Source: Planctomycetota bacterium (GTDB lineage Bacteria > Planctomycetota > UBA1135 > GCA-002686595). From it: a DNA stretch of 38,330 nt. Under the pieces are notes generated by a model. The model made no database searches. It was given only the letters and a program-made list of their open reading frames with translations, and was not told where the DNA came from. The position numbers and the translations under genes are program-made. This document shows, one piece after another, positions 14,945 to 38,046 of this stretch (its first letter is position 1; the number at the start of each line of letters is the position of its first letter). The stretch covers positions 1 through 38,330 of the forward strand of contig JAKFYL010000017.1 in the NCBI GenBank assembly GCA_021730845.1. Direction: 5' to 3'.

Positions 14945-15781
14945 ATGGTTCGGCTAGCAGGCATCGAGATCCGGGGCGTTTCGGAAGGTGGGATTCAGAC
15001 TTGCTTGGATCTTCCCGAAGTCAAAATGTGTTTTGACTTGGGCCGTGTGCACGAATGGGCAGTACCGCGAGAATTGGTCCTGTTCACGCATGCCCACATG
15101 GACCACATGGGCGGCATCGCCGCGCACACGGCCTTGCGCCACCTGCGCCGACTGCCGCCCCCGCGCTACGTCGTTCCGCCCGAGAATGCTGCGGACATCG
15201 AGGCGCTGCTCGAGGCCTGGAGACGGCTGGATCGCTCGCGCATGGAGTGCCAAGTGATTGGCCTAGGGCCGGGCGCACAGATCGAATTGCCCAATCGCTG
15301 GATCGCGCGCCCCTTTCGCTCCCCGCACCGAGTGATCACGCAGGGCTACGGTCTTTGGAGCAACAAACACAAGCTCAAGCCCGAATTCGCCGGGGCCCCG
15401 CCGAAGGAGATTCGCCGCCTAAAAAGTCAGGGCGTGGAACTGACTTCCTTGGTCGAAACGCCCGAGTTCGTGTTCACGGGCGACACGCTGGTCGAGGTCG
15501 TGGAAGCCCAAGAGGTCGTGCGCAAGGCGCGCGTGCTCGCGATCGAGGTCACGTTCCTCGACGAGCGCGTCAGCGTGGCCGAGTGCCGCGAAAAGGGCCA
15601 CACGCACCTGGAGGAGTTGATCGAGCGCGCCGATTTGTTCGAAAACGAAGCCATCTTGCTGCTGCATTTTTCCACGCGTTACACCGAACGTCAGATCTTG
15701 GGCCTGCTCGAGCAGCGCCTGCCCGACAAACTCAAATCGAAGTGCTCGGCCTTCGTGCGCTCGCTCCAGACCCGCGACTGA
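14945..15781 (+). CDS. RNase Z-like metallo-beta-lactamase fold protein
   Basis: A 278-residue MBL-fold protein. The metal motif HAHMDH is at 49-54 (HxHxDH, the two-zinc site), followed by FRSPHRVITQGYGLW, FVFTGDTLVE (motif with metal-bridging Asp) and LLLHFSTRYTERQI near the end, which matches the HFSxRY ending of tRNase Z enzymes. The flexible arm of true RNase Z is not obvious, so a tRNA 3'-processing role is possible but not proven; many planctomycete and other genomes have several such paralogues. It starts nine bases after the OYE gene and is probably co-transcribed with it. Its last 50 bases overlap the end of the convergent cstA gene. Confidence 0.85.
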   Translation: MVRLAGIEIRGVSEGGIQTCLDLPEVKMCFDLGRVHEWAVPRELVLFTHAHMDHMGGIAAHTALRHLRRLPPPRYVVPPENAADIEALLEAWRRLDRSRMECQVIGLGPGAQIELPNRWIARPFRSPHRVITQGYGLWSNKHKLKPEFAGAPPKEIRRLKSQGVELTSLVETPEFVFTGDTLVEVVEAQEVVRKARVLAIEVTFLDERVSVAECREKGHTHLEELIERADLFENEAILLLHFSTRYTERQILGLLEQRLPDKLKSKCSAFVRSLQTRD

Positions 15782-17426: not shown

Positions 17427-17433
17427 GACTTGG

Positions 17434-18744
17434 TCACGCCTGGCGGGCTTCGGCCTTGCGCTCGGAATTCTCGATGAAGGTGGCGCACACCACGTCACCC
17501 AGTACGTTGACCACCGTGCGCCCCATGTCGAGCAGGCGATCCACGCCCAGGACCAGCGCCAGCCCGTCAGGGGGCACGCCCACCTGCGCCATGACGATCA
17601 TGAGCAACGGCAGGGAACCGCCGGGAACGCCAGCCGCCCCGATCGAAGTCAAAACGCACAATCCAACCACCAGGATCTGCTGCCCGATGGTCAATTCCAC
17701 GCCGAAGATCTGCGCAATGAACAGGACGACGGCGCCCTCGAACAGCGCCGTACCGTTCATGTTCATGGTTGCCCCAAGAGGCAGCACGAATCCGCATACC
17801 GACTCGCGCACTCCCAGCTCGGTGTGCGTCAGCCGCATCGACGTCGGCAACGTTGCATTGCTCGAGGAAGTCGAAAAGGCCGTGACCATGATGGGCATGG
17901 CCTTGCGGAAGAACTCGATCGGCCGCCGGCCCGAAAGCCAGCGCAGCAGTACGGGATACACGCCGAGCACTTGGATCAAGTAACCAATTAGGACCACAGC
18001 CATGTAGGCCGAAAGCTTGGCGAGCAGTTCCCAGCCGAATCGGGAGGTCACCACGAACACCAGGCAAAAAACTGCCATCGGGGCGAGTTTCATGGCGAAA
18101 CCCACGATCACGACCATGGCGTCAGCCAGAGAGTCGAGCCACAAGGCCATGCCGTCGCGCCGATCGCGTGGCAGCACGGTGAGTGCCGCGCCGAACAACA
18201 GCGCAAAGACGATCAGAGGCAACATTTCCATTTTGGAAATCGCGCCCAGGATGTTGCGCGGCACGAACATGTCCAGCACCTGATTCACACGTGCAATGGG
18301 TGTCGGCAGGCGCTGCGCCTGTGAGGCCGCCTTCACGCTGGCCGCGTCCGTCGAAAAATCGGCCATCAGCTCGTCGCGGGTCGCGCTGTCGAAGCCCACT
18401 CCAGGCTCGACCAAGTTCATACCCACGATCCCGATCACTGCGGCACACGAAGAAGTGAGCGCGAAAAACGCGAGCGTACGGCCACCGATCCGTCCGAGCT
18501 TGCTCAGGTTGCCAAGGCGCGCAACGCCGGCGGCCAGTGAGGCGAACACCAAGGGCACGACCACGAAGAACAGCAGTCGCAAGAACACCTGCCCGATCGG
18601 GTGCGCAACGTACGTCGAGAACGACTCCACGAGGCGCTTCGCGCCGTCCGAGTTGCTCGCCCAGGCCTTGGCGGCTATGCCAGCCGCGGCACCCAGACCC
18701 AGCCCGATCATGATCGAGTACTGCTGGCTCTTGGGCGCGCTCAT
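17434..18744 (-). CDS. Dicarboxylate/amino acid:cation symporter (DAACS)
   Basis: A 436-residue protein of the glutamate/dicarboxylate transporter family (GltP/DctA). Re-entrant hairpin 1 reads AFSTSSSNATLPTS, TM7 has ATMNMNGTALFEG (NMDGT-like motif), hairpin 2 has GAAGVPGGSLPLL, and TM8 has DRLLDMGRTVVNVLGD, which in the family holds the substrate-contacting Asp and Arg. The protein should take up an acidic amino acid or C4-dicarboxylate with sodium or protons. A larger soluble loop (about 115-165) lies between TM3 and TM4. The downstream cstA gene starts seven bases after the stop, so the two uptake systems probably share a transcript. Substrate choice (succinate, malate, glutamate or aspartate) is not determined. 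Confidence 0.94.
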   Translation of the reverse strand: MSAPKSQQYSIMIGLGLGAAAGIAAKAWASNSDGAKRLVESFSTYVAHPIGQVFLRLLFFVVVPLVFASLAAGVARLGNLSKLGRIGGRTLAFFALTSSCAAVIGIVGMNLVEPGVGFDSATRDELMADFSTDAASVKAASQAQRLPTPIARVNQVLDMFVPRNILGAISKMEMLPLIVFALLFGAALTVLPRDRRDGMALWLDSLADAMVVIVGFAMKLAPMAVFCLVFVVTSRFGWELLAKLSAYMAVVLIGYLIQVLGVYPVLLRWLSGRRPIEFFRKAMPIMVTAFSTSSSNATLPTSMRLTHTELGVRESVCGFVLPLGATMNMNGTALFEGAVVLFIAQIFGVELTIGQQILVVGLCVLTSIGAAGVPGGSLPLLMIVMAQVGVPPDGLALVLGVDRLLDMGRTVVNVLGDVVCATFIENSERKAEARQA

Positions 18745-18794
18745 GTTGGCGATGCTACGGGGCCGGCGCGCGCGCGGTCAACCATCGGAAGCGA

Positions 18795-19721
18795 TCACTT
18801 GGTGCCGGATCGTGGTTTGTACAGCAAAGAAGCCCCGATGGTGATCACCAGGATTCCGCCGACAGTCGACAACGCCCAGCCCACGGGGATGTGGTAACTA
18901 TGCGCCAAGAGCATCTTGATGCCCACGAACACCAAGATGGCCGACAGGCCTGCCTGCAGGAAACGCAGGCTGGTCATGGCTTCGGCAACCGCAAAATACA
19001 GGGCGCGCAGGCCCATGATGGCCAAAATGTTGGAGCTGTACAGCACCAGGCGGTCCGACGAAATGGACAGCGCCGCCGGCACCGAATCGACGGCGAACAT
19101 GACGTCCGTGGATTCGATGACCACTAGGGCCAGGAAATGCGGCGTGGCCAGCAGCTTGCCCCCGCTGCGCAGGAAGAAGTTCGCGCCTTGGGTTTGCGAG
19201 GTCACCGGCAGGAAGCGCTTGGCCAAACGCAACGCGAGGTTGCCTTCGGGGTGAATCTCGCGCTCCTTTTCAAAGCCGAGCTTGATGCCGGTGAAGATCA
19301 AGAATGCACCCAGCACGTACAAGCTCCACGCGAAACGCTCGGTCAGCTCGACTCCGACGAAAATAAACACCCCGCGCAAGACGATGGCCCCAAAAATGCC
19401 CCAGAATAGGACCCTGTGCTGGTGCTCGGGCCGAATGGCAAAGGAACGAAAGACGACCACGAAGACGAAGATGTTGTCCACCGAAAGGGCTTTTTCGGTG
19501 ATGTAGGCGGCCAAGAACTCTTGCGTTCGCTGGGTTCCGTTCTCGGCCCATAGATACAAGGCCAGGCAGAACAGAGCGGCCACGACGATCCAAACCACTA
19601 CCCACGCCATGGCTTCGCGAAAAGCCATGGCATGAGGCTTGCGATTGACCAGCCCTAGGTCGATGGCGAGCATCGCCACGGTCATGACCCAGAACACCGC
19701 CCATAAGGTCGAATCGGTCAT
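18795..19721 (-). CDS. TerC/Alx-family membrane protein
   Basis: A 308-residue integral membrane protein with about nine hydrophobic segments. Diagnostic stretches are DLGLVNRKPHAMAFREA, AAYITEKALSVDNIFVFVVVF and ALVVIESTDVMFAVDSVPA, in which paired acidic residues within the membrane (EK..SVDN and ES..D..FAVDS) are the family's probable metal site. TerC/Alx/MeeY/MeeF-type proteins export manganese or help load exported metalloenzymes; some are linked to tellurite resistance. It lies 50 bases from the symporter gene and 45 bases from the APC permease gene, all on the minus strand. No Alx-type riboswitch could be recognised in the short upstream gap. Confidence 0.94.
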   Translation of the reverse strand: MTDSTLWAVFWVMTVAMLAIDLGLVNRKPHAMAFREAMAWVVVWIVVAALFCLALYLWAENGTQRTQEFLAAYITEKALSVDNIFVFVVVFRSFAIRPEHQHRVLFWGIFGAIVLRGVFIFVGVELTERFAWSLYVLGAFLIFTGIKLGFEKEREIHPEGNLALRLAKRFLPVTSQTQGANFFLRSGGKLLATPHFLALVVIESTDVMFAVDSVPAALSISSDRLVLYSSNILAIMGLRALYFAVAEAMTSLRFLQAGLSAILVFVGIKMLLAHSYHIPVGWALSTVGGILVITIGASLLYKPRSGTK

Positions 19722-19766
19722 GACTGGGAGCGCGGCATTCCTGGAACGAGCGGTGACACCATCGCA

Positions 19767-21647
19767 CTAGGTGTACAAGAGTAGTCGGATGTAGGACGGG
19801 AGGCGCTTGGCGAGCCCATTGACCACATGGCCGCGCAGCAAGTGGTACACCGCGCTGCGCTGACTGACTCCTACCATGACGGCGGTTACGCCCAAGGTTT
19901 CCGCGGCGCGGATGATACCCTCCACGGCGTTGTGCGATACGGTCCACACGGGAATCAAGGTGAAGCCTTCCCGCTCGGCAATGCGCGAGGCACCCACGAT
20001 GCCCTCAACCACGTCGGGTTCGAGCTCGAAGTCGCTGGCTCGCACGAACAGCCCCGTGCGCTCTTCGACGAATAGCGCGTAGATAGTGGCCCCCTTGCGA
20101 CCGCGCTCGCGGTTCATCGCTTCGGTGATCAATCCGGGATTGAGAGTGCGCATCGCCACGAGCGTGCTGGATGGGTAGAGCTTGGCCACGTCTTTGGCTT
20201 GGGCAAGACTCAGAATCTCTACCTGGGCTTGAGCCTCTAGGTGTTGCTCGGATTCAATCCGGCGTTCCTCGGCGCGGCGTTTGACCCAACCTTGCTTGTA
20301 CACGAAATCCGCGATCCAGCGGTGGCGAGTTCCAAGTGCCAAGGTCATCCCAAGGGCGACCATGGCTACTCCAAACACCGTGGCTGCTTGTTTCGTGTAC
20401 AGATTGGTGCCCCAGGCGACCAGGACGATGAGCGTGGTCGCGACACCGACCCAAAAGCGCAGGCCCCGATCCTCGGCGCGCCAGCGAATCAAATCCAGAC
20501 CGGCAGAACTGAGCACGAACGCGCCTAGCAATCCGAAGGCGTATAGGTTGCCCAGTAGCACCATGTTGCCCTTGGCGAAAAACAGGATGCCGGCTGGAAG
20601 TATGGTCGCGGTGAGAATGGCTACGTGCGGCGTCTTGTAGCGCCGATTGCGCGCCGCGATCGCGGCCGGCATGTAGTTGTGATCGCTCAGCGCCAAGAAC
20701 ACGTGGTAGCTGCCAATGATGGCCGTATTGGCCGCCAGCAGCAGCAGTGCGGCGGCCGATGAGACGACCGCGATCTTGATCGGCAGCCCGCCGTGCAAGA
20801 ATCCTAGCTCCGAAATGAAGCGCTCCGAATCGTGGACCTTGGTCGCGTATGGCAAGAGTGCCACGGAGAACAGAGTCAGCACCGGCGACGTGAGCAAGAC
20901 CGTGCCCACGACGAACTTCATTCCTCGCGAGGCGGTGGCCTGGATCGGCAGCTTCATGGCAGAGCCCAGCTGGCTGATGCTCTCCAGACCAGAAAACGCC
21001 AACCAGGCGCCGGAAAAACCGATCAAGAACTCGCGCGTGCTCAGGTGACCGGAGTTGCGCAGGTTCTCCACGATCATCGACCACTGGCCCGGAATGGGGT
21101 TGAGCACGACCACGCCGATCACGACGATGTTGACCACGAAGGCCAAACCCGCCATGCACAAGGACAGCATCGCGCTCTCGCGAATGCCGATGATGTTCAC
21201 GAGCGCCAGCACCGAAAGCGATAGCAGCGCAAAGAGCACGACGTGGTGCTCGAAGAATGGAAAGACACTGCCGAGGTAGTGAATGCCCGACGTCGACGAG
21301 ATAGCCGACGTCAGGAAATAGTCGATGCAGATCAGGAGCCCGCCAAACGCGCCCCACTTTTCGCCGAAGGCGTTGGACGCGACGCTGACTACCCCACCAC
21401 CTTCCGGAAACCTCCAACAGATCTCGACATACTTCCTAGCCAGCAACATGAAGCCGATGGTGGCTGCCAGTACGAATAGCGGCGTGGAATTGCCGACCTG
21501 CGAGAAGAGGATGCCTGGAACGTAATAGATCGACGTGCCGATGTCGGCGAACACGACACCCCAGACGAGCAGGGGAGTGAGCTGCCGCAGGTCGAGATCG
21601 GGGAGCACACGCCTAGGGGCGTTCTCGCCTGCTTCTGGTCGGGACAT
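19767..21647 (-). CDS. APC-superfamily permease with C-terminal universal-stress-like domain
   Basis: From the ATG at 21645-21647 the protein has 626 residues. The first 430 or so form an APC-type transporter with 12 probable helices: GVVFADIGTSIYYVPGILF in TM1, WRFPEGGGVVSVASNAFG, and FSGAWLAFSGLESISQLGSAMK in TM6. The acidic FPEGGG/ESIS stretches are usual for the family. Residues from about 480 are soluble and look like a universal-stress-protein-type alpha/beta domain (GATIYALFVEE, then ETLGVTAVMVGVSQRSAVYHLLRG near the end). Such fusions are known in amino acid or potassium transporters of the APC superfamily. A longer frame from 21722 would add 25 Pro-rich residues with no family support. 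The substrate is unknown. Confidence 0.88.
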   Translation of the reverse strand: MSRPEAGENAPRRVLPDLDLRQLTPLLVWGVVFADIGTSIYYVPGILFSQVGNSTPLFVLAATIGFMLLARKYVEICWRFPEGGGVVSVASNAFGEKWGAFGGLLICIDYFLTSAISSTSGIHYLGSVFPFFEHHVVLFALLSLSVLALVNIIGIRESAMLSLCMAGLAFVVNIVVIGVVVLNPIPGQWSMIVENLRNSGHLSTREFLIGFSGAWLAFSGLESISQLGSAMKLPIQATASRGMKFVVGTVLLTSPVLTLFSVALLPYATKVHDSERFISELGFLHGGLPIKIAVVSSAAALLLLAANTAIIGSYHVFLALSDHNYMPAAIAARNRRYKTPHVAILTATILPAGILFFAKGNMVLLGNLYAFGLLGAFVLSSAGLDLIRWRAEDRGLRFWVGVATTLIVLVAWGTNLYTKQAATVFGVAMVALGMTLALGTRHRWIADFVYKQGWVKRRAEERRIESEQHLEAQAQVEILSLAQAKDVAKLYPSSTLVAMRTLNPGLITEAMNRERGRKGATIYALFVEERTGLFVRASDFELEPDVVEGIVGASRIAEREGFTLIPVWTVSHNAVEGIIRAAETLGVTAVMVGVSQRSAVYHLLRGHVVNGLAKRLPSYIRLLLYT

Positions 21648-21773
21648 CGAGGGGGATGGCTGAGCAACCCAAACCCGGGGACCCGGATTGGCGGTTGCTG
21701 GGGTGGGGCAGCAATCCCCCATTCCATGGACAGGCCCCAGCCGCCGTCAAGTGCGGCTCGCGAACTGGCGCGC

Positions 21774-21818
21774 AGGCCCAGCTACCGGCCCCAAGAATGC
21801 GACCGGGAAGCTGGGCCT
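21774..21818 (-). terminator. Hairpin just after the sodium:proton antiporter gene
   Basis: Perfect 10-bp inverted repeat, AGGCCCAGCT (21774-21783) and AGCTGGGCCT (21809-21818), with a partly self-pairing inner region (CCGG...CCGG). It begins eight bases past the stop of the minus-strand antiporter gene, the place expected for a terminator. No T-tract follows in the minus direction, so it is either a GC-rich hairpin terminator without U-run or an mRNA-stabilising stem. Confidence 0.5.
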
Positions 21819-21825
21819 TTCGCCG

Positions 21826-23283
21826 TCACAGGAAGAACAGCACGGTCAGCAAGCCGAAGATCGGCAGTAGAATGAGCCCCGAGTACAGCATGTAGCCGAA
21901 GAAGCCCGGCATCTTGATGCCGCTTTGCTCCGCGATGGCCTTCACCATGAAGTTGGGGCCGTTGCCGATGTAGGTGTTGGCTCCCATGAACACGGCCCCG
22001 CAGGAGATCGCTTGAAGCAAACTGTGGGCCAGGTCGCCCTTGCCGAGAAACTCCTTCAAGTACATGCCTTCGACGGCAACACCTTGCATGCCGCTAGCGG
22101 TGGCGGCGAAGGTCAGGTAGGTGGGAGCGTTGTCCAGCACGCTGGAGAGCAGGCCCGCGCCCCAGAAGAAGTGCCACGGCTGGCTCATGGCAAAGGCCTG
22201 GCCCGCAATGTCGCGCTGTCCTTGTCCCCAGGCGTTCAGGATGAGTAGCGCCGGAGCCATGGTGACGAAGATACCGATGAACAGCACCGCGACTTCGACG
22301 ATGGGGACCCAGGAGAAACTGTTCTTCTCGCGCAAGTTGCCCGACGTCGTGAACCAAGCCATCAAGCCCAAGCCGATCATCCCAGCTTCTTGCAGGCCCA
22401 TGGGCCAAGGCTTGCCGCCCGTTCCCACGCCGGCACCCGCGCCGTAAATCACCAGCACGACGCCGAGTAGATACAAGAAGTTGTGCGCCCCTTCGATGCG
22501 CAGCGGGTCGTGCCGCATGACGGCCTCCAACTGGGATCCCTCGCGAGCTCGCTCTTCCTTTTGCAACACGAGTTGGTCCCAGACGTTGAACACGACTAAC
22601 AGGATCGCCACGACGATCAGCCACTCCTTCCAAAGGCCGAAAGTCCAGGCGAACGGCACACCTTTTAGGAAGCCCAAGAACAACGGTGGATCGCCCAAGG
22701 GGGTCAGCAGGCCCCCGCAGTTCGAGACGATGAAAATGAAGAACACGACGATGTGGACTGTCTTCTGCCGCGACTTGTTGGCGCGCAGAAGAGGGCGAAT
22801 CAAGAGCACCGACGCGCCAGTGGTACCGATGAAGCTCGCCAATCCGGCCCCCAGCGCCAGAATGCAAGTGTTGACCAATGGCGTTCCGGCCAAGGACCCT
22901 CCGACGTAGACACCCCCGGTGATTACGAACAGCGAGCCCAAGAGCGCGATGAACGAGACGTACTCGTGGCCCTTCTCGAGCAGATTGTGAACCCCGGCTT
23001 CCCCGAATTGCAGGACCATGTAGGCCCCGATCGGGATGGCGAACAAGGCCGAGACGATGCCCTTGTTGCGGTTGTGCTCCCACCAGTGGTTTGCAACCAG
23101 GGGCAGCACCGCAATCGAGAGCAAAATCCCGGCGAACGGAATCAGAGTCCAAAGCTGGAGCTCGGTGCCCATGTTGGCGTGGGACTGCTCGAACGAAAAA
23201 GCGTGGGAACTAGTCGCGATCACACTGACCAGCAACGCCGCCGCGCGTGCCAGCCAAGCGGAGGCCGGGGGAATTGTCTGCAT
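21826..23283 (-). CDS. Sodium:proton antiporter (NhaD/CitMHS-like)
   Basis: From the ATG at 23281-23283 the protein has 485 residues and about 12 membrane helices. An N-terminal hydrophobic segment (SAWLARAAALLVSVIATSSHAF) may be a cleaved signal peptide. Ion-transporter features include TGGVYVGGSLAGTPLVNT, SFIGTTGASVLLIRPLLRANK, VSNCGGLLTPLGDPPLFLGFLKG, and later SSVLDNAPTYLTFAATA and GANTYIGNGPNFMVKAIAE, the paired re-entrant motifs of the NhaD / citrate-metal transporter superfamily. The expected role is sodium export in exchange for protons, which suits a marine or salt-exposed organism. A 26-codon upstream extension in the same frame has no family support. It diverges from the coiled-coil gene and is followed by a strong hairpin. 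Confidence 0.9.
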   Translation of the reverse strand: MQTIPPASAWLARAAALLVSVIATSSHAFSFEQSHANMGTELQLWTLIPFAGILLSIAVLPLVANHWWEHNRNKGIVSALFAIPIGAYMVLQFGEAGVHNLLEKGHEYVSFIALLGSLFVITGGVYVGGSLAGTPLVNTCILALGAGLASFIGTTGASVLLIRPLLRANKSRQKTVHIVVFFIFIVSNCGGLLTPLGDPPLFLGFLKGVPFAWTFGLWKEWLIVVAILLVVFNVWDQLVLQKEERAREGSQLEAVMRHDPLRIEGAHNFLYLLGVVLVIYGAGAGVGTGGKPWPMGLQEAGMIGLGLMAWFTTSGNLREKNSFSWVPIVEVAVLFIGIFVTMAPALLILNAWGQGQRDIAGQAFAMSQPWHFFWGAGLLSSVLDNAPTYLTFAATASGMQGVAVEGMYLKEFLGKGDLAHSLLQAISCGAVFMGANTYIGNGPNFMVKAIAEQSGIKMPGFFGYMLYSGLILLPIFGLLTVLFFL

Positions 23284-23531
23284 GGGAATCCGGTGAGGGT
23301 TGGGCTGACCCCAAGGGGAAAGGTCTGCCGCTCGGGTTCGGGGCCGGCAGGAAGTTTGCAACCCTGAACCGTCTGCATCAAGTTCGGACTCCGAAGCGGC
23401 CGCCCTTGACTCCGCGAAACGATTTCGCTGGGCCGGTGCCTATTCGCAACTTCCTTCAAGAAGTGCCAGGGCTGGGAGCCGAATACTGTCAGCGCTCACC
23501 TACCCCCCCGGTCCGAAATAGCCCCGGAAAC
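23284..23531. promoter_or_regulatory. Divergent intergenic region with GCGAAA-CGA-TTTCGC palindrome
   Basis: This 248-base gap separates the antiporter gene (minus) from the coiled-coil gene (plus) and must carry promoters for both. A perfect 15-bp palindrome with 6-bp arms lies at 23414-23428, a size and shape typical of a dimeric repressor site. A TTGACT at 23406-23411 resembles a -35 box, but no matching -10 lies at normal distance. The regulatory reading is inference. Confidence 0.45.
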
Positions 23532-28642: not shown

Positions 28643-30007
28643 ATGCTCCTGACGTTCCTGTTCGCCCTCGCCTCGCTCCAGGCGCCCTCGCCGCCGCAGG
28701 TGCAATCGATCAGCGACCTCAGCCAGGAGTTCACGTTCTACATGGACGGTCGCTTCCATGCCCAGTACCTCAAAGGCGTCGGCCGCGACGCGCGCAATTG
28801 GGGCAGCTTGCACCGACTCGACCTTTCGAACACGAATCTGCTGCTGCTGGAGGACGGCGATCCGCACGTACCGTTCTCGCCGGAATCGATCGCGCACGTC
28901 GAGCGCTATGTGCGCGAGGGCAGCACGGTTCTACTGATGGCCGACGGCGGAGATCCGATGCCGCCGGGCGAGGCGCTGGTCGCCAAGCTGGGTGGGAGTC
29001 TCTCGCAACGTGCCGCAGAGCCGCCGCTTTCCGCGGTCGGCGCCGACTGGGAGGTCGAGTTCCGCGGCGGCCGCGTGCTCGAAGCGGGTCCGGAGTGGAC
29101 CGTATTGATCCAAGACGCCCAGCAACGGCCGGTGCTCGCGCGGCGCAAGCTCGAACGTGGCTTCGTGCTGCTCGGCAGCCGCGGGCTGTTCGGCCACCAG
29201 CCGGACGCCAAGGACCCGATCAATGCACGGTGGGTGACGCCGCTACTCGTCGAGCTCGCGACACACAAGCGCTTCGATCCGTCTCGCGCTCACGAGCGCG
29301 CCTTCGCGGAGCATGCGCGCGCCGTCGGACCCTTGACGCTCGAGTACACCGACGGCACCGCGCGCTCTGCCGACGCCATTGCAGGCGAGTTCGCGCTCGT
29401 GCGCCCGCATCTGGTTGCGCTCACCGGCGTCGAACCGTCTCCGGGCATGATTCGCCAGCTCCTGATCCTGCCCACCGGCAAAGGCGGCTTCAGCAGCGGC
29501 GAACGCATCGCAATCGCGGCCTGGTGGGGCGGCTATCCCGACCGACGCTACCCCATGGTGGAACTGATCGCGCACGAGGCCGGCCACTCTTGGGTGCTGC
29601 CGCACCCCGAGCCCATGTGGAATGAACCGATCGCGACCTACCTGGGAATCCTGGTCGGCAGGCGCCTGGAGATGCCCGAGGCAGGGCTCACGCTCGAGCG
29701 CCAAATCGCAGCCGGCCGCCGGCACGATCCGGACTTCACGCGCGTGAACCCGCTCGAAAAGGACGCGCCGCGCGACCTCGTGTGGGGTAAGTCATTCTTC
29801 GCATTCGAGGAACTCGAACGTCTCCACGGGCCAGGCGTGCTCGCCAAATACTTCCAGACCAAGCGTGCCATCGTTCCGGCAGGGCGCCAGGGCTACTCGA
29901 TGGACGATTGTGTCGCCGTATGGAGCCGCGCCGTCGGACAGGACCTGTTCCCGTGGTTTCGCTCGCTCGCGTTCCAGGTCGACGCGGAGCGGACGGATCT
30001 CGAGTAG
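28643..30007 (+). CDS. Secreted HEXXH metallopeptidase-like protein with amidotransferase-like front half
   Basis: A 454-residue protein starting with a signal peptide (MLLTFLFALASLQA). Residues about 30-205 look like a GATase1/ThuA-type alpha/beta domain (FSPESIAHVERYVREGSTVLLMADGGD; FVLLGSRGLF), without a visible catalytic cysteine triad. The second half has HEAGH at 311-315 and a glutamate at 328 in MWNEPIATYLG, i.e. HEXXH-x12-E. This fits the M60 (enhancin) pattern HEXXH-x(8,28)-E of gluzincin peptidases, so H311 and H315 plus E328 may bind zinc with E312 as base. M60 members cut mucin-type glycoproteins, but the overall match to that family is uncertain. It is followed by the Dabb gene after 110 bases. 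A role in extracellular protein or glycoprotein breakdown is inferred. Confidence 0.72.
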   Translation: MLLTFLFALASLQAPSPPQVQSISDLSQEFTFYMDGRFHAQYLKGVGRDARNWGSLHRLDLSNTNLLLLEDGDPHVPFSPESIAHVERYVREGSTVLLMADGGDPMPPGEALVAKLGGSLSQRAAEPPLSAVGADWEVEFRGGRVLEAGPEWTVLIQDAQQRPVLARRKLERGFVLLGSRGLFGHQPDAKDPINARWVTPLLVELATHKRFDPSRAHERAFAEHARAVGPLTLEYTDGTARSADAIAGEFALVRPHLVALTGVEPSPGMIRQLLILPTGKGGFSSGERIAIAAWWGGYPDRRYPMVELIAHEAGHSWVLPHPEPMWNEPIATYLGILVGRRLEMPEAGLTLERQIAAGRRHDPDFTRVNPLEKDAPRDLVWGKSFFAFEELERLHGPGVLAKYFQTKRAIVPAGRQGYSMDDCVAVWSRAVGQDLFPWFRSLAFQVDAERTDLE

Positions 30008-30117: not shown

Positions 30118-30432
30118 ATGGCGATGATTACTCACCTGGTGCTGCTCAAGATCCGCAAAGACGTGCCCCAAACGCAGATTGCGCGCGTGTTTGCAGCCCT
30201 CGCGGGCCTCAAGAAATCGATCCGCGGCATCATCAGCTTCTCGAGCGGCGCGTATTCGTCACCAGAGGGTTTGCAGCGCGGCTTCACGCACGCCTTCTGC
30301 ATGACGTTCGAAAACGCCGCCGCGCGCGACGCCTATCTGCCCCATCCGGAGCACGAGAAGGTCAAGAAGATCGTGCTCGAAGTGCTCGAGGGCGGCCTCG
30401 ACGGCGTCATCGCCTTCGACTATGAGTCCTAG
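30118..30432 (+). CDS. Dabb-family (stress-responsive alpha/beta barrel) protein
   Basis: A 104-residue protein from the ATG at 30118; a second ATG six bases on (30124) is equally possible. It has the Dabb pattern: MITHLVLLKIRKDVP at the N-terminus, the helix VFAALAGLKKSIRGI, SGAYSSPEGLQRGFTHAFCMTFENAAARDAYLPHPEHEKV and a final VIAFDYE strand. The histidines H8 (THLVLLK), H67-region FTHAF and PHPEH are those usual in the family, which forms dimeric ferredoxin-like barrels. Functions vary (small-molecule binding, cyclases, stress). The stop overlaps the start of the giant PVC-type gene by 11 bases, which suggests that the two are translated together. Confidence 0.85.
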   Translation: MAMITHLVLLKIRKDVPQTQIARVFAALAGLKKSIRGIISFSSGAYSSPEGLQRGFTHAFCMTFENAAARDAYLPHPEHEKVKKIVLEVLEGGLDGVIAFDYES

Positions 30433-33400
30433 CTGCCGCGCGGGTGGTTGGCGCGCCCATATGCTGCTTGCGGCAGCGGCCGTGCTGGGCTGCGCTGCCC
30501 GCGAACGAGCGTCGTCGCTCGATTCCGGTCCGTCGGGCGCGCCCAGTGATATCACGTTCGAACGCCGCACTCTGGCCACGGAGTTTTTTTGCGAAGGCGC
30601 GCATTTCGCCGATCTCGACCGCGATGGGCATTCGGACGTGATCGCGGGCCCCTATTGGTATCAGGGGCCAGACCTCCGCACGCGCCACGAGTTGTTGCCG
30701 CCTGTTGCCGTCCATCCGGCAGGCTACAGCGAACACTTCTTCGTCTGGCCCCGCGATATCGACGGCGACGGCTGGGTCGATCTGCTCACGGTTGGTTTCC
30801 CGGGCAAGTCGGCCCAGTGGCTGCGCAACCCCTTGGGCTCGGGTGGCCGGCCGGGACAGCATTGGGAGCGTTTCCTCGTCCACGACAAGGTCGACAACGA
30901 GTCGCCGACGTTCGTCGATCTGACTGGCGACACAAATCCAGAACTCGTGTTCCACTCGGGCGGCCGCTTTGGCTTCGTCACCCCAGTGCCGGGCCAGCCC
31001 CGCGCGCCGTGGCAGTTCCACCCCATCTCGGCGAAATTCGACATCGGTCCGTTCACGCACGGATTGGGCGTGGGCGATGTCGATGGCGACGCGCGCGCCG
31101 ACGTGCTGTGGAACGAAGGCTGGCTGCGCCAACCCGAGTCTTTGGACGGCGACCCAATTTGGAAGTTCGAATCCGTCCGTTTCAGTTCCGGCCAGGGTGG
31201 CGCGCAGATATTCGTGCGCGACGTGGATGGCGACAAGGACGGCGACGTAATCACGAGCCTGGCTGCGCACGGTTTTGGCCTGTCGTGGTTCGAGCAGGTG
31301 CAAGGCAGCAGCGGAGCGCGCTTTGTCGAACACCGTTTGATGGGCGCGCGGAGTGAAGAACACGCGCACGGGGTGTGCTTTTCGGAGTTGCACGCGCTCG
31401 ACGTGGCCGATGTCGATGGCGACGGCCTCGACGACATCGTCACGGGCAAGCGCTGGTGGTCCCACGGAGCTGAGGGCGACCCGCAGCCGGGCGCGCCGCC
31501 GCTCGTGGCGTATTTCAAGCTCGTGCGCCGCGCGGGGGGCGCCGACTTCGTGCCGTATGTGATCGACGAGGCGGCAGGCGTGGGCGTGCAACTGGTCACC
31601 GGCGACGTGGACCTGGATGGCCTGCGCGACATCGTCGTGGGCAGCAAACGCGGCGTGTACGTGCTCTTCCAGCGGCGCAAGCCGGCGGGTCCGAGCACGC
31701 AGGGCGCCAAATCGCCGACGCTGGACTTCGAGGACGGGGATCTGCGCGGCTGGACGGCCAGCGGCGATGCGTTTGCGCTTCAGCCGCTGCGCGGCGACCT
31801 GGTTCGCGCGCGCGGACGCGAGCCGAGCCTGCATCAAGGCGAACTTTGGATCGGCGGTTACGAGCGTTTGGGCGACGGCCCGGTGGGTCAGCTCACCTCG
31901 GACGCGTTCGTCGTGGAGCAGCCCTGGGCGAGTTTCTTGGTCGGCGGAGGCGCCGACGACGTCGGCGTCGAGATTGTCTTGGCAACTCCCGAATCGGACG
32001 GGAAAAGCGCCGCCGAACGCATCCTGTTTCGCACCGCAGGCGCGAACTACGAGTCCATGCAGCGCGTCGTCGTCGATCTGAGCGCCCATGTGGGCCGACA
32101 CATCTTTGTACGGCTGGTCGACCAAGCTTCGGGAGGCTGGGGACACATCAACTTCGACGATTTCCGCTTTCATCAAGCAAAGCCGACGTTTGAGCGGCCC
32201 GCTGGGGTGCCGCAGATTCTGCCGCTGGACGAAGTGAAACATGCCGGACTCTCGGCCACACAAGCTGCGCGCGCCATGGAACTGCCGGCGGGCTTTCGAG
32301 TCGACGTGATCGCCGCCGAACCCGACTTGCACCAACCCATCGCGCTGGCGGTCGACGATCGCGGCCGCTTGTGGGTGGCCGAAGCGTTCACCTACCCCAA
32401 GCGCCAAGCCGGCGAGCGCGGATCGGACAACATCGTCGTGTTCGAGGACGAAGACCACGACGGACGCTTCGAGCGCCGCACCGTATTTCTGTCAGGACTC
32501 AACCTGGTCAGCGGTCTGGAAGTTGGATTCGGCGGCGTGTGGATCGGGGCGGCTCCGTATCTGCTGTTCGTGCCGGATCGAGACGCCGACCTCGTGCCCG
32601 ATGGGCCGCAGCAGATCTTGCTCGACGGCTGGGGCTTGGAGGACACGCACGAAACGCTCAATACGTTCACCTTTGGACCCGATGGATGGCTATACGGATG
32701 CCACGGGATCTTCACGCATAGCCGCGTCGGCCGGCCGGGAACGCCGGACGCACAGCGCACGCCACTCAACGCCGGTCTGTGGCGCTTCCATCCGACACGC
32801 CAGGAGTTCGAAGTGTTCGCCTTTGGGACCTCCAACCCCTGGGGCGTGGATTTCGACGCGCACGGACAGGCCTTCTTGACCGCGTGCGTGATCCCGCACT
32901 TGTTCCACGCCGTGCAGGGTGGACGCTACATTCGTCAGGCCGGGTCGCATTTCGATGCGCACGCCTACGGCAACATCGACACGATCGCCGACCACCGGCA
33001 CTACCTCGGCGAGCAGCCGCACTCGGGCAACAATCGCTCGAACGCCAGCGGCGGCGGCCACGCGCATTGCGGCTTGGTGATCTACGGCGAGGATCTGTTT
33101 CCAACGGCCTACCGCGGCGCGCTGCTGTTCGGCAACATCCACGGCAACCGCATCAATCAGGATGTGCTCGAGCGCAAAGGCTCCGGATTCGTCGGCAAGC
33201 ACGCACCCGATTTCCTCCTGGCCAACGACAAATGGTTTCGCGGCATCAATCTGCGCTCGGGGCCAGACGGCGCGTTGTACGTGATCGATTGGTACGACCG
33301 GCAGGCATGCCACTTGACCACCCCCGAAGTCTGGGACCGCTCCAACGGCCGGCTGTACCGCATCTCCTACGGCACGCCCAAACCCGCGGCGATCGATCTC

Positions 33401-35743
33401 GCCAAGCTGGACAGCAAGGCGCTGGTCGAACTTCAGTCCGGCAGCAGTGAGTGGCACGCGCGCCGCGCGCGCCGGCTGCTCCAGGAGCGCGGCCCTGACG
33501 CGCAAACAGAGCAGCGCTTGCTTGCCCAGCTAAGAGAGGCGCCCTCGGATGTGGCACGGCTGCGCAGCCTGTGGGCACTGCATGGACTCGGCGCAGTGAG
33601 CGAAGCCCTCGCGCGCGAGCAGATGCACAGCCCGCACGAGTACCTGCGCGCCTGGGCCATCCAACTCGCACTGGAGGACCGCCAGGTGGAACCGGACACG
33701 CTCGCAAGCCTGGAGCGCTTGGCCGCCAGCGACCCCTCGCCGGTCGTGCGCCTGTATCTGGCCTCGAGTCTGCAACGCTTGCCCCTGGAGCAGCGTTTCG
33801 AGCTCGGCCGCCAATTGGCAGCGCGCGGCGAGGACGAGAACGATGCCAACATTCCCCTGCTCTTGTGGTACGGCGTTGAACCCCTGGTCGCGCACGAACC
33901 TGCACGCGCCCTCGATCTGTTCCAGAGTTCGGCGCTCACCTTTGTGGCGCGCGCTTGCATTCGCCGGGCCGCCGCGAGTCCCAAACTGCACCCCCACCTC
34001 GTGCATACGCTGGCCGGCGCCAACCGGGAATCTTTGCCGTGGATGCTCGAAGCGACGCAGGCCGGACTTGCCGACCAGCGCGGGTTCGGTATGCCGGCTG
34101 GTTGGCCTGCGCTGTATGAAAGGCTGCTTGCAGATAGTCGTGCCGACGTGCGCGAACGCGCTGCGACGCTGGCGGCCGCCTTCGGTGACCCGCACGCTCT
34201 CGCGAATTTCCGCGCAACGCTCTCCGACTCGCAATCTCTGGCTGCACACCGACTGCAGGCGCTCGAAGCCCTCGTGCGCGCGCGCGATCCGCAAACGGCT
34301 CCACTGCTTCTTCCCCTGCTCGACGATGAACGCTTGCGCGGCCCTGCGCTGCGCGCGCTCTCGACCTTCGAGCACGGCGAAACGGCCGCCGCTATCCTCA
34401 AACGCTATGCAACGCTTGGTGTCGAGGAGCGCCGCGATGCCTTGAACGCACTTTCGTCTAGGGGCTCGTACGCGCAGATGCTGCTCGACGCCGTCGCAGC
34501 CGGCACTGTTCCGCGCTCCGATTTGGGCGCGTTCGTCGCCCGCAAACTGGAAAGCTTGGACGATCCGCCCCTAGCCGCGCGCCTAGCCGCGCTCTGGGGT
34601 CGCGTGCGGCCGACTTCCGCGGACCGCGCGACGCAAATCGAGGCCTTGAAGCGCGCGCTGAGCCCGCAAGTGTTGGCCCAGGCAGATCGCGGCCGCGGTC
34701 GCGCCGTCTTTGCGCGCACGTGTCAGCAGTGCCACATGTTGTTCGACAGCGGCGGCAAGGTCGGCCCGGAACTCACTGGCTCGAATCGTGCGGATTTGGA
34801 CTACTTGCTTTCCAACGTGGTCGACCCCAACGCCGTGGTGGGCAAGGATTACCTGGCGACCATGATCTGGACCGTCGACGGACGCCTGCTCACAGGCATC
34901 CAGCGCGAGTCGAACGAAAGCACCGTGACTCTGCAGTCCGAGAACGAGACGCTGGTGATCGCGCGCTCGGAGATCGAAGAGCAGCGGCTCGCGGATGTAT
35001 CGACCATGCCGGAGGGGCTGCTCGATGGTTTGTCGCCCGAGCAGATCGCGGACCTGGTGGCCTATTTGCAAGGACCGGAGCAGGTGCCGCTGGTCGAAGC
35101 TGAGCCCAGCGCGGACAAAAGCGCACCGGAAGGAGAGCTGCGCAAGCAACCCGCTGGCGATTCGGGTGCTGCCACTGCAGGCAAGTTGGAAGTCGGTGTG
35201 TCCGCGCTAGCTCCTTGGAATGGAAATCGATCGGTCTGGCACGAAATCACGAGTCTCCCCGCATACGGAGAGGGGCCGCTTCCCCCGCATACGATCCTGG
35301 GCCACAGCGAAGCGGGACTCGGCGAGAATTCGTTCTTCCACTCCGGCCGGGAACTGGGCGACTTCCGACTGTCGGTGGAAGTGCTGCTCGTCGGCGATGC
35401 CGGAAACTCTGGAATCCAGTTCCGCTCGCGCGTCTTGGAAAACGGCGATGTCGCCGGCTATCAGGCCGATATCGGGCCCGACTGGTGGGGCAAGCTGTAC
35501 GAAGAGCACGGGCGCGGGGTGCTGTGGCCAGAGTCCGGCGAGAAGTTCGTGAAAAAGGGCGAGTGGAATCGGTACGTGATCGAAGCGCGCGGCCACCACA
35601 TCCGCACCTGGATCAACGACGGATTGTGCGTCGATCTCAAAGATGAAGCCGGCGCGCTGCGCGGCATGATCGCGCTGCAAGTCCACTCCGGTGGGCCGAC
35701 GGAAGTGAGGTTCCGCGAATTCAAGCTCGAGATCCTGGACTGA
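30422..35743 (+). CDS. Giant VCBS-propeller / PVC dehydrogenase / HEAT / cytochrome c / DUF1080 protein
   Basis: A 1773-residue exported protein. The N-terminus has a hydrophobic core ending in VLGC (C24), a possible lipoprotein site; an inner ATG at 30461 gives the same signal. Modules in order: seven FG-GAP/VCBS-type repeats with Asp-rich calcium loops (for example ADLDRDGHSD at 63-72 and DVDGDGLDD), about 60-420; a lectin-like beta domain, about 434-590 (LDFEDGDLRGW to INFDDFRF); a PVC-type membrane-bound-dehydrogenase propeller, about 610-990 (FRVDVIAAEPDLHQPIALAV, GRLWVAEAFTYP); HEAT-like repeats, about 993-1410; one haem-c site CQQCH at 1434-1438; and a DUF1080 (3-keto-disaccharide hydrolase) domain, about 1600-1773 (WHEITSL, GNSGIQFRSR, WNRYVIEARG). 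The typical PVC haem protein lacks both the front VCBS part and the DUF1080 part. It probably oxidises a sugar or alcohol outside the cytoplasm. Confidence 0.92.
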   Translation: MSPSCRAGGWRAHMLLAAAAVLGCAARERASSLDSGPSGAPSDITFERRTLATEFFCEGAHFADLDRDGHSDVIAGPYWYQGPDLRTRHELLPPVAVHPAGYSEHFFVWPRDIDGDGWVDLLTVGFPGKSAQWLRNPLGSGGRPGQHWERFLVHDKVDNESPTFVDLTGDTNPELVFHSGGRFGFVTPVPGQPRAPWQFHPISAKFDIGPFTHGLGVGDVDGDARADVLWNEGWLRQPESLDGDPIWKFESVRFSSGQGGAQIFVRDVDGDKDGDVITSLAAHGFGLSWFEQVQGSSGARFVEHRLMGARSEEHAHGVCFSELHALDVADVDGDGLDDIVTGKRWWSHGAEGDPQPGAPPLVAYFKLVRRAGGADFVPYVIDEAAGVGVQLVTGDVDLDGLRDIVVGSKRGVYVLFQRRKPAGPSTQGAKSPTLDFEDGDLRGWTASGDAFALQPLRGDLVRARGREPSLHQGELWIGGYERLGDGPVGQLTSDAFVVEQPWASFLVGGGADDVGVEIVLATPESDGKSAAERILFRTAGANYESMQRVVVDLSAHVGRHIFVRLVDQASGGWGHINFDDFRFHQAKPTFERPAGVPQILPLDEVKHAGLSATQAARAMELPAGFRVDVIAAEPDLHQPIALAVDDRGRLWVAEAFTYPKRQAGERGSDNIVVFEDEDHDGRFERRTVFLSGLNLVSGLEVGFGGVWIGAAPYLLFVPDRDADLVPDGPQQILLDGWGLEDTHETLNTFTFGPDGWLYGCHGIFTHSRVGRPGTPDAQRTPLNAGLWRFHPTRQEFEVFAFGTSNPWGVDFDAHGQAFLTACVIPHLFHAVQGGRYIRQAGSHFDAHAYGNIDTIADHRHYLGEQPHSGNNRSNASGGGHAHCGLVIYGEDLFPTAYRGALLFGNIHGNRINQDVLERKGSGFVGKHAPDFLLANDKWFRGINLRSGPDGALYVIDWYDRQACHLTTPEVWDRSNGRLYRISYGTPKPAAIDLAKLDSKALVELQSGSSEWHARRARRLLQERGPDAQTEQRLLAQLREAPSDVARLRSLWALHGLGAVSEALAREQMHSPHEYLRAWAIQLALEDRQVEPDTLASLERLAASDPSPVVRLYLASSLQRLPLEQRFELGRQLAARGEDENDANIPLLLWYGVEPLVAHEPARALDLFQSSALTFVARACIRRAAASPKLHPHLVHTLAGANRESLPWMLEATQAGLADQRGFGMPAGWPALYERLLADSRADVRERAATLAAAFGDPHALANFRATLSDSQSLAAHRLQALEALVRARDPQTAPLLLPLLDDERLRGPALRALSTFEHGETAAAILKRYATLGVEERRDALNALSSRGSYAQMLLDAVAAGTVPRSDLGAFVARKLESLDDPPLAARLAALWGRVRPTSADRATQIEALKRALSPQVLAQADRGRGRAVFARTCQQCHMLFDSGGKVGPELTGSNRADLDYLLSNVVDPNAVVGKDYLATMIWTVDGRLLTGIQRESNESTVTLQSENETLVIARSEIEEQRLADVSTMPEGLLDGLSPEQIADLVAYLQGPEQVPLVEAEPSADKSAPEGELRKQPAGDSGAATAGKLEVGVSALAPWNGNRSVWHEITSLPAYGEGPLPPHTILGHSEAGLGENSFFHSGRELGDFRLSVEVLLVGDAGNSGIQFRSRVLENGDVAGYQADIGPDWWGKLYEEHGRGVLWPESGEKFVKKGEWNRYVIEARGHHIRTWINDGLCVDLKDEAGALRGMIALQVHSGGPTEVRFREFKLEILD

Positions 35744-35886
35744 GCGCCGCGCCGAACTGGCCGCCCAGGTTGCCTTAGACCCAAACGGTATGTACTGCAT
35801 CTCGAGATCCAAAGGTCGATTCGTCTGGGATGGGTACCCGTTCCCGCTGTCGCCTCTCTAGGGAATCCCGCGGCTATCCTACCTGG

Positions 35887-38046
35887 ATGGCGATTCTCTT
35901 GGCCCTGTTGTGCGCGGCGCAAGTTTCTGACGTCTCCATTGCTCGAGCCGACTGGCTGGCAGACGCGCAGCCCGCGCCCGCGCGCGTCGTCGTCACCCCG
36001 GACACGCACACGATCCGGATGGGCAACGGTCTGATCGAGCGCAGCTTTCGCACCGTGCCGAACGCGGCAACCGTCGGTCTCGACAACGCGATGACCGGCC
36101 AGTCGGAGCTGCGCAGCGTGCGGCCAGAGGCGCGTGTGACGATCGACGGCCGCGAGTACGACGTCGGCGGATTGGCCGGGCAACCGATCCACAACTACTT
36201 GCTGCCCCAGTGGCTGGAATCGATGACAGCGGACCCGACGGCTTTTGCCTTTGTCGGGCAGCGCAGCAATCCGATTGCGCCGCGCCTGCAGTGGAAACGG
36301 CGCACGGCGTGGCTCTCCTCCACCCCCGATTGGCCGCCCAAGGGACTGGAACTCGTGCTTTCCTTTCGCGCGCCCGCGGGCGGCCCCGAGGGCGTAAGCG
36401 TCGACGTGCACTACGAGATCTACGACGGCCTGCCGCTGATCTCGAAGTGGATCGAAGTCGTCAACTACGGCCCTGCCGAAATCACGCTGGATCGCTTTTG
36501 CTCCGAAATCCTCGCCACGATCGAACCGGCGTCGATGGTCGAGGGCGTCGCGGCCGATTTCGCCGGATGGCAGCGCTCCATCCACGTCGAATGCGAATTT
36601 TCGATGGGTGGAGGCAAGGATGCGACGCTCGACGCACCGGGCGCGCGGTGGACGCTCGATCCCCTGTACACGACGCAGGTCAACTACCAACTCCAGACGC
36701 CGTGTGTCCTGGAAGTCTCGCCGCGCAGCGGCCCCGCGGCAAAGATCGCTCCCGGTGGAAAGTTCACCTCGTACCGCGCCTACGAGTTGTTCCACGACTC
36801 CAGCGACCGCGAGCGGCGCGGACTTGCGCTGCGGCGCATGTACCGCACGATCGCGCCCTGGATCTTGGAGAATCCGCTGATCTTCCACGTGCGCTCTGCG
36901 GATCCGGCAGCAGTGCGCTCGGCGATCGAACAGGCGGCCGACGTCGGCTTCGAGCTCGTCTTGATGACTTTCGGATCGGGCTTCGAGATCGAACGCGAAG
37001 ATCCACAGTACCTGGAGCAGATCAAGGAACTGGTCGACTACGCGCACGAGCGCGGCATCGCTCTGGGCGGCTATTCGCTGCTCGCCAGCCGGAGCATCGA
37101 CGCCGAGAACGATGTGATCAATCCGGCGACGGGCAGGCCAGGCGGTTTCGCGACCTTTGGCAATTCGCCGTGTCTTGGAAGCGCTTGGGGACAAGACTAT
37201 TTCCGCAAGCTCTACGCGTTCTTCGAGCGCACCGGGCTGGACGTGCTGGAACACGACGGCAACTATCCAGGGGACGTGTGCGCGTCGAACGCACACCCCG
37301 GCCACGCCGGTCTAGCCGATTCGCAGTACACACAGTGGCGCACCATCTCTAACTTCTACGCCTGGTGCCGCGCGCGAGCGATTTACCTCAACGTGCCGGA
37401 CTCGTACTTCCTGGTCGGCTCCAACAAGTCCGCCATGGGTTACCGCGAAACCAACTGGTCGCTGCCGCGCGAGCAGCAGGAAATCGTCGAGCGCCAGAAC
37501 ATCTACGACGGGACCTGGACCAAGACGCCGAGCATGGGATGGATGTTCGTGCCGTTGACCGAGTACCAAGGCGGCGGCGCTGCGGCGACCATCGAGCCTT
37601 TGTCGGAGCACCTCGATCACTACCGCGTGCGCCTGGAAAACTTGCTCAGCGCCGGCGTGCAGGCCTGCTATCGCGGGCCGCGGCTCTACGACAGTGAGGC
37701 CACGCGCCAACTCGTGAGCGACAAGGTCGCCTGGTTCCAGAAGCACCGCGCGATCCTGGAATCGGACATCGTCCACGGGCGCCGCCCTGACGGCCGCGAC
37801 ATCGATTGGATCCTGCACGTCAATCCGAAGTTGCAAGATCGCGGCATGCTGATCGTCTACAACCCGCTGCCGCAGGCTGCTCGGCGCACGTTGCGCGTGG
37901 ACCTGACCTACACCGGGATCAGCGGCACGGCGCAGGCAATGTTCGCCGATGGCAGCGAGCGCTCGATCGCGGTCGATGCGCGAGGCAGCGCGATGATCGA
38001 ATTGCTCGTGCCAGCGCGCGGGATGACTTGGGTGCGCTTGCGCTGA
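35887..38046 (+). CDS. Secreted TIM-barrel glycoside hydrolase-like protein (alpha-galactosidase-like)
   Basis: From the ATG at 35887 the protein has 719 residues and a signal peptide (MAILLALLCAAQVSDVSIARA); a frame from 35830 adds 19 residues before it. Residues about 30-320 form an all-beta N-terminal domain, and about 330-600 a TIM-barrel-like core: VGFELVLMTFGSGFE, IKELVDYAHERGIALGGYSL, YFRKLYAFFERTGLDVLEHDGNYPGD (D457 is in the position of the nucleophile of clan GH-D enzymes) and FYAWCRARAIYLNVPDSYF. A C-terminal beta domain follows. The layout matches GH27/GH36-type alpha-galactosidases; the acid/base residue could not be fixed. It lies 143 bases after the DUF1080-containing giant gene, fitting a joint role in breaking down an outside polysaccharide. 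Substrate and exact family are not determined. Confidence 0.7.
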   Translation: MAILLALLCAAQVSDVSIARADWLADAQPAPARVVVTPDTHTIRMGNGLIERSFRTVPNAATVGLDNAMTGQSELRSVRPEARVTIDGREYDVGGLAGQPIHNYLLPQWLESMTADPTAFAFVGQRSNPIAPRLQWKRRTAWLSSTPDWPPKGLELVLSFRAPAGGPEGVSVDVHYEIYDGLPLISKWIEVVNYGPAEITLDRFCSEILATIEPASMVEGVAADFAGWQRSIHVECEFSMGGGKDATLDAPGARWTLDPLYTTQVNYQLQTPCVLEVSPRSGPAAKIAPGGKFTSYRAYELFHDSSDRERRGLALRRMYRTIAPWILENPLIFHVRSADPAAVRSAIEQAADVGFELVLMTFGSGFEIEREDPQYLEQIKELVDYAHERGIALGGYSLLASRSIDAENDVINPATGRPGGFATFGNSPCLGSAWGQDYFRKLYAFFERTGLDVLEHDGNYPGDVCASNAHPGHAGLADSQYTQWRTISNFYAWCRARAIYLNVPDSYFLVGSNKSAMGYRETNWSLPREQQEIVERQNIYDGTWTKTPSMGWMFVPLTEYQGGGAAATIEPLSEHLDHYRVRLENLLSAGVQACYRGPRLYDSEATRQLVSDKVAWFQKHRAILESDIVHGRRPDGRDIDWILHVNPKLQDRGMLIVYNPLPQAARRTLRVDLTYTGISGTAQAMFADGSERSIAVDARGSAMIELLVPARGMTWVRLR

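Follow-up and report, generated by a model that had tools for sequence, protein, structure and literature searches.

The window analyzed here is a 38,330-nucleotide stretch of DNA from a Planctomycetota bacterium (assembly GCA_021730845.1, contig JAKFYL010000017.1) containing a large gene for a modular haem protein, which follows a short gene for a Dabb protein on the same strand (Table 1). An original prediction, made from the sequence alone, proposed that seven VCBS repeats, a lectin-like domain, a PVC dehydrogenase propeller, HEAT-like repeats, a CxxCH site, and a DUF1080 domain are joined in one 1773-residue chain; its title counted five modules, but its own text lists six kinds. The frame is intact from 30422 to 35743 and the profile matches fall in the proposed order, placing all of these modules on a single chain. 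Pfam and NCBIfam searches recovered each named domain except the lectin-like stretch, which matched no Pfam family. The protein is real, conserved, and coherent, although its family is known and its modules are common in the phylum. Its N terminus, MSPSCRAGGWRAHMLLAAAAVLGC, reads as a lipoprotein-like signal, and the protein is predicted to be an exported lipoprotein. Bases 30422–30432 are common to the end of the Dabb gene and the start of the large gene, which gives the proposed overlap of exactly 11 bases if the first ATG is used; a start at Met14 (30461), a possible alternative, would instead leave a 28-base gap after the Dabb stop.

Table 1. Positions of the Dabb gene, the large gene, and the modules and sites of its product in the window
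Feature	Position	Strand	Residues	Basis
Dabb gene (PF07876)	30118–30432	+	104 aa	PF07876 match; no signal peptide
Large modular haem protein gene	30422–35743	+	1773 aa	ATG to stop, unbroken frame
Predicted signal peptide with lipobox-like VLGC (Cys24)	30422–30493	+		sequence reading; orthologue signals Sec- or lipoprotein-like
Seven-bladed FG-GAP/VCBS propeller	30554–31696	+	45–425	Pfam, AlphaFold, Foldseek
Jelly-roll/lectin-like β-sandwich	31703–32191	+	428–590	model and conservation
PVC propeller (TIGR02604/DUF7133)	32255–33376	+	612–985	soluble glucose dehydrogenase fold; His-rich near-invariant set
HEAT/α-solenoid	33419–34651	+	1000–1410	Pfam, model
TIGR02603 mono-haem cytochrome c domain	34682–35077	+	1421–1552	NCBIfam, Kustd1711 match
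CQQCH haem c attachment site	34721–34735	+	C1434–H1438	100% in 83 sequences
Met1529, predicted distal haem ligand	35006–35008	+	1529	100% in 83 sequences; Kustd1711 homology
PF06439/DUF1080 domain, BT3469-N/CBM66-like subtype	35252–35740	+	1611–1773	

The PVC propeller is the best-conserved part of the chain, at 68.5% compared with 41–58% in the other folded parts, and its presence was borne out by scores above the curated cut-offs for both TIGR02604 (394.4 bits against 122.2, E 5.8e-118, residues 624–984; NCBIfam) and DUF7133 (236.4 bits against 27, E 8.9e-70; Pfam). H743, R788, H790, N805, and D956 are kept in all of 81 PVC propellers, and H826, H858, H860, H880, H882, H907, C963, and H964 in approximately 95% or more of them. 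The AlphaFold model of the C-terminal part of the protein matched soluble pyrroloquinoline quinone (PQQ) glucose dehydrogenase (5min, E 1.1e-7; also 1c9u), and a profile of the propeller aligned with GSDH (hhalign 99.5%, E 5e-22). Position 804 corresponds to the RNP-motif arginine that contacts PQQ in GSDH; it is Ser, Thr, or Asn in 81/81 PVC propellers and Arg in the relatives' own GSDH proteins (n = 11 aligned). No pqqC gene scored above the cut-off in any of 41 genomes (one weak match, in G037), but these genomes are 65–95% complete and the control genomes also gave none, leaving the search without a positive control. Identity as a PQQ enzyme was rejected, since the fold is retained but the RNP arginine is lost and pqqC was not found; exogenous PQQ remains a conceivable source.

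The propeller is followed by the HEAT-like repeats, evident from a HEAT_2 match (E 9.6e-12; Pfam) and a long modelled helical solenoid, which is the least conserved folded part (41%). The predicted CxxCH site is CQQCH at residues 1434–1438 and lies inside a TIGR02603 domain (109.1 bits against a cut-off of 68.15, E 1.5e-31, residues 1421–1550) modelled by AlphaFold with a β insertion. All 83 sequences compared have C1434, C1437, H1438, and M1529, and by analogy with Kustd1711, a His/Met ligated, Ca-tuned cytochrome of approximately +350 mV (PMC11791136), the haem is predicted to be ligated by H1438 and Met1529.

The same module order occurs in many independent genomes. Among 40 relatives, full-length colinear orthologues (46–58% identical) were found in 13 genomes and a split form in one (G022). 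Colinear orthologues of approximately 1,720–2,000 residues are present in more than 20 other genomes, some of them single-contig. In a phylum sample of 199 genomes the full form extends to several further families, again including single-contig genomes, and a scan of named genomes located it in Rhodopirellula sp. SM50 and many Planctomycetota metagenome-assembled genomes (MAGs). Across 14 orthologues 330 residues are invariant, and AlphaFold models from 14–15 orthologues show, in order, seven blades, a β-sandwich (residues 430–590), a propeller, a helical solenoid, a cytochrome-like domain, and a C-terminal β-sandwich. The orthologue in G001 (L044:8430–14780, − strand) has an additional FG-GAP propeller C-terminal to its DUF1080 domain, in a 2116-residue frame. 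Other arrangements also exist. In Blastopirellula marina DSM 3645 (L100), the FG-GAP propeller is encoded separately, by a divergent gene next to a 1366-residue remainder; Verrucomicrobia MAGs have a form without FG-GAP, with FG-GAP as a separate gene in L105. The PVC propeller genes in the named-genome scan comprised 11 of the full form, 10 without FG-GAP, 27 of the bare core, and 24 with FG-GAP plus core. The full, reduced, and split forms indicate that the modules are a mix-and-match set. The natural splits (L100, L105, G022) would also be compatible with an artificial joining of two or more genes during assembly, but more than 20 genomes, several of them single-contig, have the modules in identical order within one frame, which makes this next to impossible, and fusion or chance was rejected on the evidence of the colinear orthologues. 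A split into two genes on correction of the assembly, which the original prediction named as grounds for its rejection, was not found, many genomes having an unbroken frame.

The association with Dabb (PF07876, 82.8 bits against a cut-off of 25, E 2.8e-23) proved firmer than was known when an operon was first proposed. Dabb orthologues, 54–73% identical, adjoin or neighbour the large gene on the same strand in seven other genomes, giving agreement of strand in 8/8 linked cases with either gene order. Close orthologues (57% identity or more) were found in 7 of 41 genomes, the window's own included, all seven being among the 15 large-gene genomes (Fisher p 0.0003, with no correction for kinship); none was found in relatives without the large gene in these 41 genomes. 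Six of the seven have Dabb at the large-gene locus (with a gap of approximately 1.2 kb in G003), and in G019 it lies elsewhere. Dabb also adjoins the large gene in G156 and G200, from another family. It precedes the large gene in a single clade (G000, G003, and G004; support 0.999) and follows it in G005, G012, G035, G156, and G200, which represent three lineages or more; the overlapping stop and start codons in G012 read ATGA. That the linkage has survived a change of gene order speaks for a functional connection. Dabb proteins lack a signal peptide and hence probably work in the cytosol, whereas the large protein is exported.

Flanking the redox core are three β-rich modules. The seven VCBS repeats of the original prediction are readable as seven FG-GAP motifs (by eye, near residues 60, 116, 166, 219, 267, 330, and 395) with DxDGDG-type repeats; the region matched FG-GAP_3 (E 8.9e-18; Pfam), and the AlphaFold model of residues 45–425 contains approximately 28 strands, corresponding to seven four-stranded blades. 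In Foldseek searches with the N-terminal half, the top match was aldos-2-ulose dehydratase (E 2.5e-11), and integrins also matched. The lectin-like domain that follows was upheld on other grounds than a family match: residues 428–590 are modelled as a β-sandwich and are 53% identical between orthologues. Lectins are among the members of the VCBS supercluster (PMC8023676).

The C-terminal DUF1080 domain scored well above the PF06439 gathering cut-off (87.6 bits against 26.8, E 1.5e-24, residues 1632–1769). Q1666, R1668, Q1681, D1683, W1689, Y1693, E1695, R1698, Q1753, and H1755 show little or no variation among 27 members of the subtype, which indicates that the domain is under constraint. Among characterized proteins of the PF06439 family, BT2157 and AL2 are named 3-keto-2-hydroxyglucal hydratase or eliminase in the titles of their PDB entries (8rr2, 8tda, and 8v31), Caulobacter genetics tied DUF1080 proteins to 3-ketolactose use (PMC9007349), and those of Thermogutta were tied to xanthan or glucan cleavage (PMC10881899). 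The window domain differs from the BT2157 type, whose solved members have in common EYQxLD(D/N), QDHG, and an insertion; EYQxLDD is replaced by GYQADIG, QDHG by QVHS, and the insertion of approximately 30 residues is absent. Its closest solved sequence is the first domain of BT3469 (4jqt, E 2.4e-31), and its structure resembles CBM66 (4azz; target-normalized template modelling score (TM) 0.74, root-mean-square deviation 3.5 Å, sequence E 0.0013) better than BT2157 (TM 0.42–0.45). Overlap between DUF1080 and CBM66 annotations was already known (PMC5673643). For this domain, 3-keto cleavage is no more likely than binding or some other activity. Near its N-terminal edge (35234–35300, + strand; ITSLPAYGEGPL region), the window domain has approximately 12 extra residues found in 0/13 orthologues; a frameshift was rejected as the cause because the other frames contain no orthologous motif.

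In our preferred reading, the large protein is a carbohydrate oxidoreductase or glycoside-cleaving enzyme of a known and conserved kind. The fuller explanation, to which we give about an even chance, is an exported, probably lipid-anchored, glycan-docked, haem-linked carbohydrate-active redox enzyme with the TIGR02604 propeller as its catalytic unit and a cytosolic Dabb partner. It is built on the domains, their conservation, the conserved haem ligands, the fold, and the Dabb linkage, from which we infer catalysis by the propeller, the electron path, and the roles of the docking domains and of Dabb. The FG-GAP propeller, the jelly-roll, and the CBM66/BT3469-N-like DUF1080 domain would dock the protein to glycan; the TIGR02604 propeller, with its soluble glucose dehydrogenase fold, His-rich pocket, and no PQQ site, would oxidize the bound sugar or give redox assistance to its cleavage; and electrons would pass to the His/Met haem c, held beside the propeller by the HEAT solenoid, and on to the respiratory chain. 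The Dabb fold clan includes RhaM, of the sugar isomerase/mutarotase type, and the co-translated, signal-less Dabb would be a cytosolic protein, perhaps an enzyme of this type, acting on the imported product. The verrucomicrobial Lac161_ORF7 (109 kDa; TIGR02604, HEAT_2, and CxxCH) was reported to be a β-galactosidase releasing glucose from lactose, with Km 1.8 mM and kcat 13.2 per s, after production in E. coli BL21(DE3)pLysS with isopropyl β-D-1-thiogalactopyranoside (PMC5342196). No other enzymatic data for TIGR02604-HEAT-CxxCH proteins were found in the literature. Because no DUF1080 is listed for this protein, the catalytic site may lie in the TIGR02604-HEAT-CxxCH core. A more specific and tentative possibility is that the PVC propeller is a new sugar-oxidizing or redox-assisted glycoside-cleaving enzyme, in which the quinone pocket of the soluble glucose dehydrogenase fold is replaced by a His/Cys-lined metal site and which works with a haem c in cis, three carbohydrate-binding modules, and a dedicated cytosolic Dabb enzyme; if true, it would establish what a large redox protein family in Planctomycetota and Verrucomicrobiota does.

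Several considerations weigh against the fuller explanation. The VCBS propeller could be catalytic too, since its best structural matches include aldos-2-ulose dehydratase, and the DUF1080 domain, with its invariant Gln, Arg, Asp, Tyr, Glu, and His, may be an enzyme after all. BL21(DE3)pLysS carries lacZ and the Km of LacZ is close to 1.8 mM, so contamination by the host enzyme possibly lies behind the activity of Lac161_ORF7. The authors of that report did not raise this concern (PMC5342196). The original prediction envisaged oxidation of a glycoside at C3 by the PVC propeller, transfer of the electrons to the haem, and cleavage or hydration of the 3-keto product by the DUF1080 domain in cis. 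The PF06439 score, the action of family members on 3-keto sugars (Caulobacter genetics and BT2157), and the ten near-invariant residues fit this mechanism, as do the five frames in the window's genome that combine DUF1080 and TIGR02604. That genome has 11 TIGR02604 matches, and with four such frames besides the window's own, the combination itself is ordinary there. The domains and the soluble glucose dehydrogenase fold stand, but the BT2157 signatures, the PQQ arginine, and pqqC are missing, the CBM66 fold fits better, and DUF1080 is absent from most PVC propeller-HEAT-haem proteins, making the mechanism rather unlikely. Alignment of the DUF1080 catalytic residues, whose loss was to count against the prediction, gave an ambiguous outcome, in that the ten polar or aromatic candidate-site residues are kept within the subtype, whereas the motifs that mark the tested enzymes are absent.

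The lactose cleavage reported for Lac161_ORF7 suggests a rival in which the PVC propeller is itself glycoside hydrolase-like, with transient redox chemistry or none and a haem that is regulatory or re-oxidizes trapped enzyme. We regard this as unlikely, as it depends on a single report, probably from a lacZ-bearing host, and the invariant haem ligands favour electron transfer. That invariance, together with the conservation of the PVC propeller above all other parts, also makes a mainly structural protein quite improbable. Such a protein, serving surface adhesion or glycan docking through binding by every domain and having a degenerate PVC propeller, might otherwise be suggested by the integrins among the FG-GAP propeller matches, the HEAT solenoid, and the CBM66-like domain.

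The main interest of the locus lies in the activity of the PVC propeller. Planctomycetota and Verrucomicrobiota have an abundance of TIGR02604/TIGR02603 proteins, yet almost no literature was found on the function of these proteins; the natural splits, module losses, near-invariant His set, missing PQQ pathway, and recurrent Dabb offer testable residues and substrates for polysaccharide attack. In G007, G037, and G001, Gfo/Idh/MocA-type oxidoreductase genes lie close to the large gene (L042:12565–13698, L056:8948–10090, and L044:7271–8467), as does a sulfatase gene in G002 (L051:9418–10947); these neighbours hint at (sulfated) glycan substrates. Downstream in the window, 35830–38046 (+) encodes a 738-residue protein with a signal-like N terminus and sub-threshold GH36N, GH97, and TIM-barrel matches; it is possibly a distant glycoside hydrolase, and a PDB search with it returned no match. 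Upstream, 28643–30007 (+) encodes a 454-residue protein with a signal-like start, a weak DUF4350 match, and a zinc-peptidase-like HEAGH (HExxH) motif, and five consecutive membrane transport-type genes (CstA, sodium:dicarboxylate symporter, TerC, amino acid permease, and CitMHS_2) occupy 15732–23361 (−).

Each part of the protein can be set beside a known system. Aldos-2-ulose dehydratase (4a7k/4a7y, VCBS superfamily) likewise has a seven-bladed VCBS propeller followed by β-rich domains, but a sequence search with the N-terminal half was negative, and a specific link in sequence was rejected in favour of similarity of fold only. Soluble PQQ glucose dehydrogenase/GSDH (5min, 1c9u; PF07995) shares the propeller fold and the Asn of the RNP motif and differs in the Arg of that motif, in the His-rich conserved set, and in pqqC. 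The C-terminal domain of Kustd1711 (7zs0, PMC11791136) aligns with TIGR02603, the distal Met included, although Kustd1711 is a stand-alone diheme cytochrome c from anammox bacteria. BT2157/AL2 has in common with the DUF1080 domain the PF06439 β-sandwich and NSG, YQ, LY(D/E), GEWN, and Q-x-H, but not EYQxLDD, QDHG, or the insertion; the nearer BT3469 N-terminal domain belongs to a protein deposited only as a putative hydrolase, and the CBM66 of levanase SacC is a binding module outside any haem protein. Lac161_ORF7 has the TIGR02604, HEAT_2, and CxxCH core, with activity on lactose and no FG-GAP, jelly-roll, or DUF1080 listed. A further parallel is with the PVC-type heme-binding CxxCH proteins (TIGR02604 and TIGR02603; DUF7133), which have the same propeller-HEAT-cytochrome core order, His-rich set, and CxxCH...M; to this core, commoner in its bare form (27 compared with 11 full), the window protein adds the N-terminal FG-GAP propeller, the jelly-roll, and the C-terminal DUF1080 domain.

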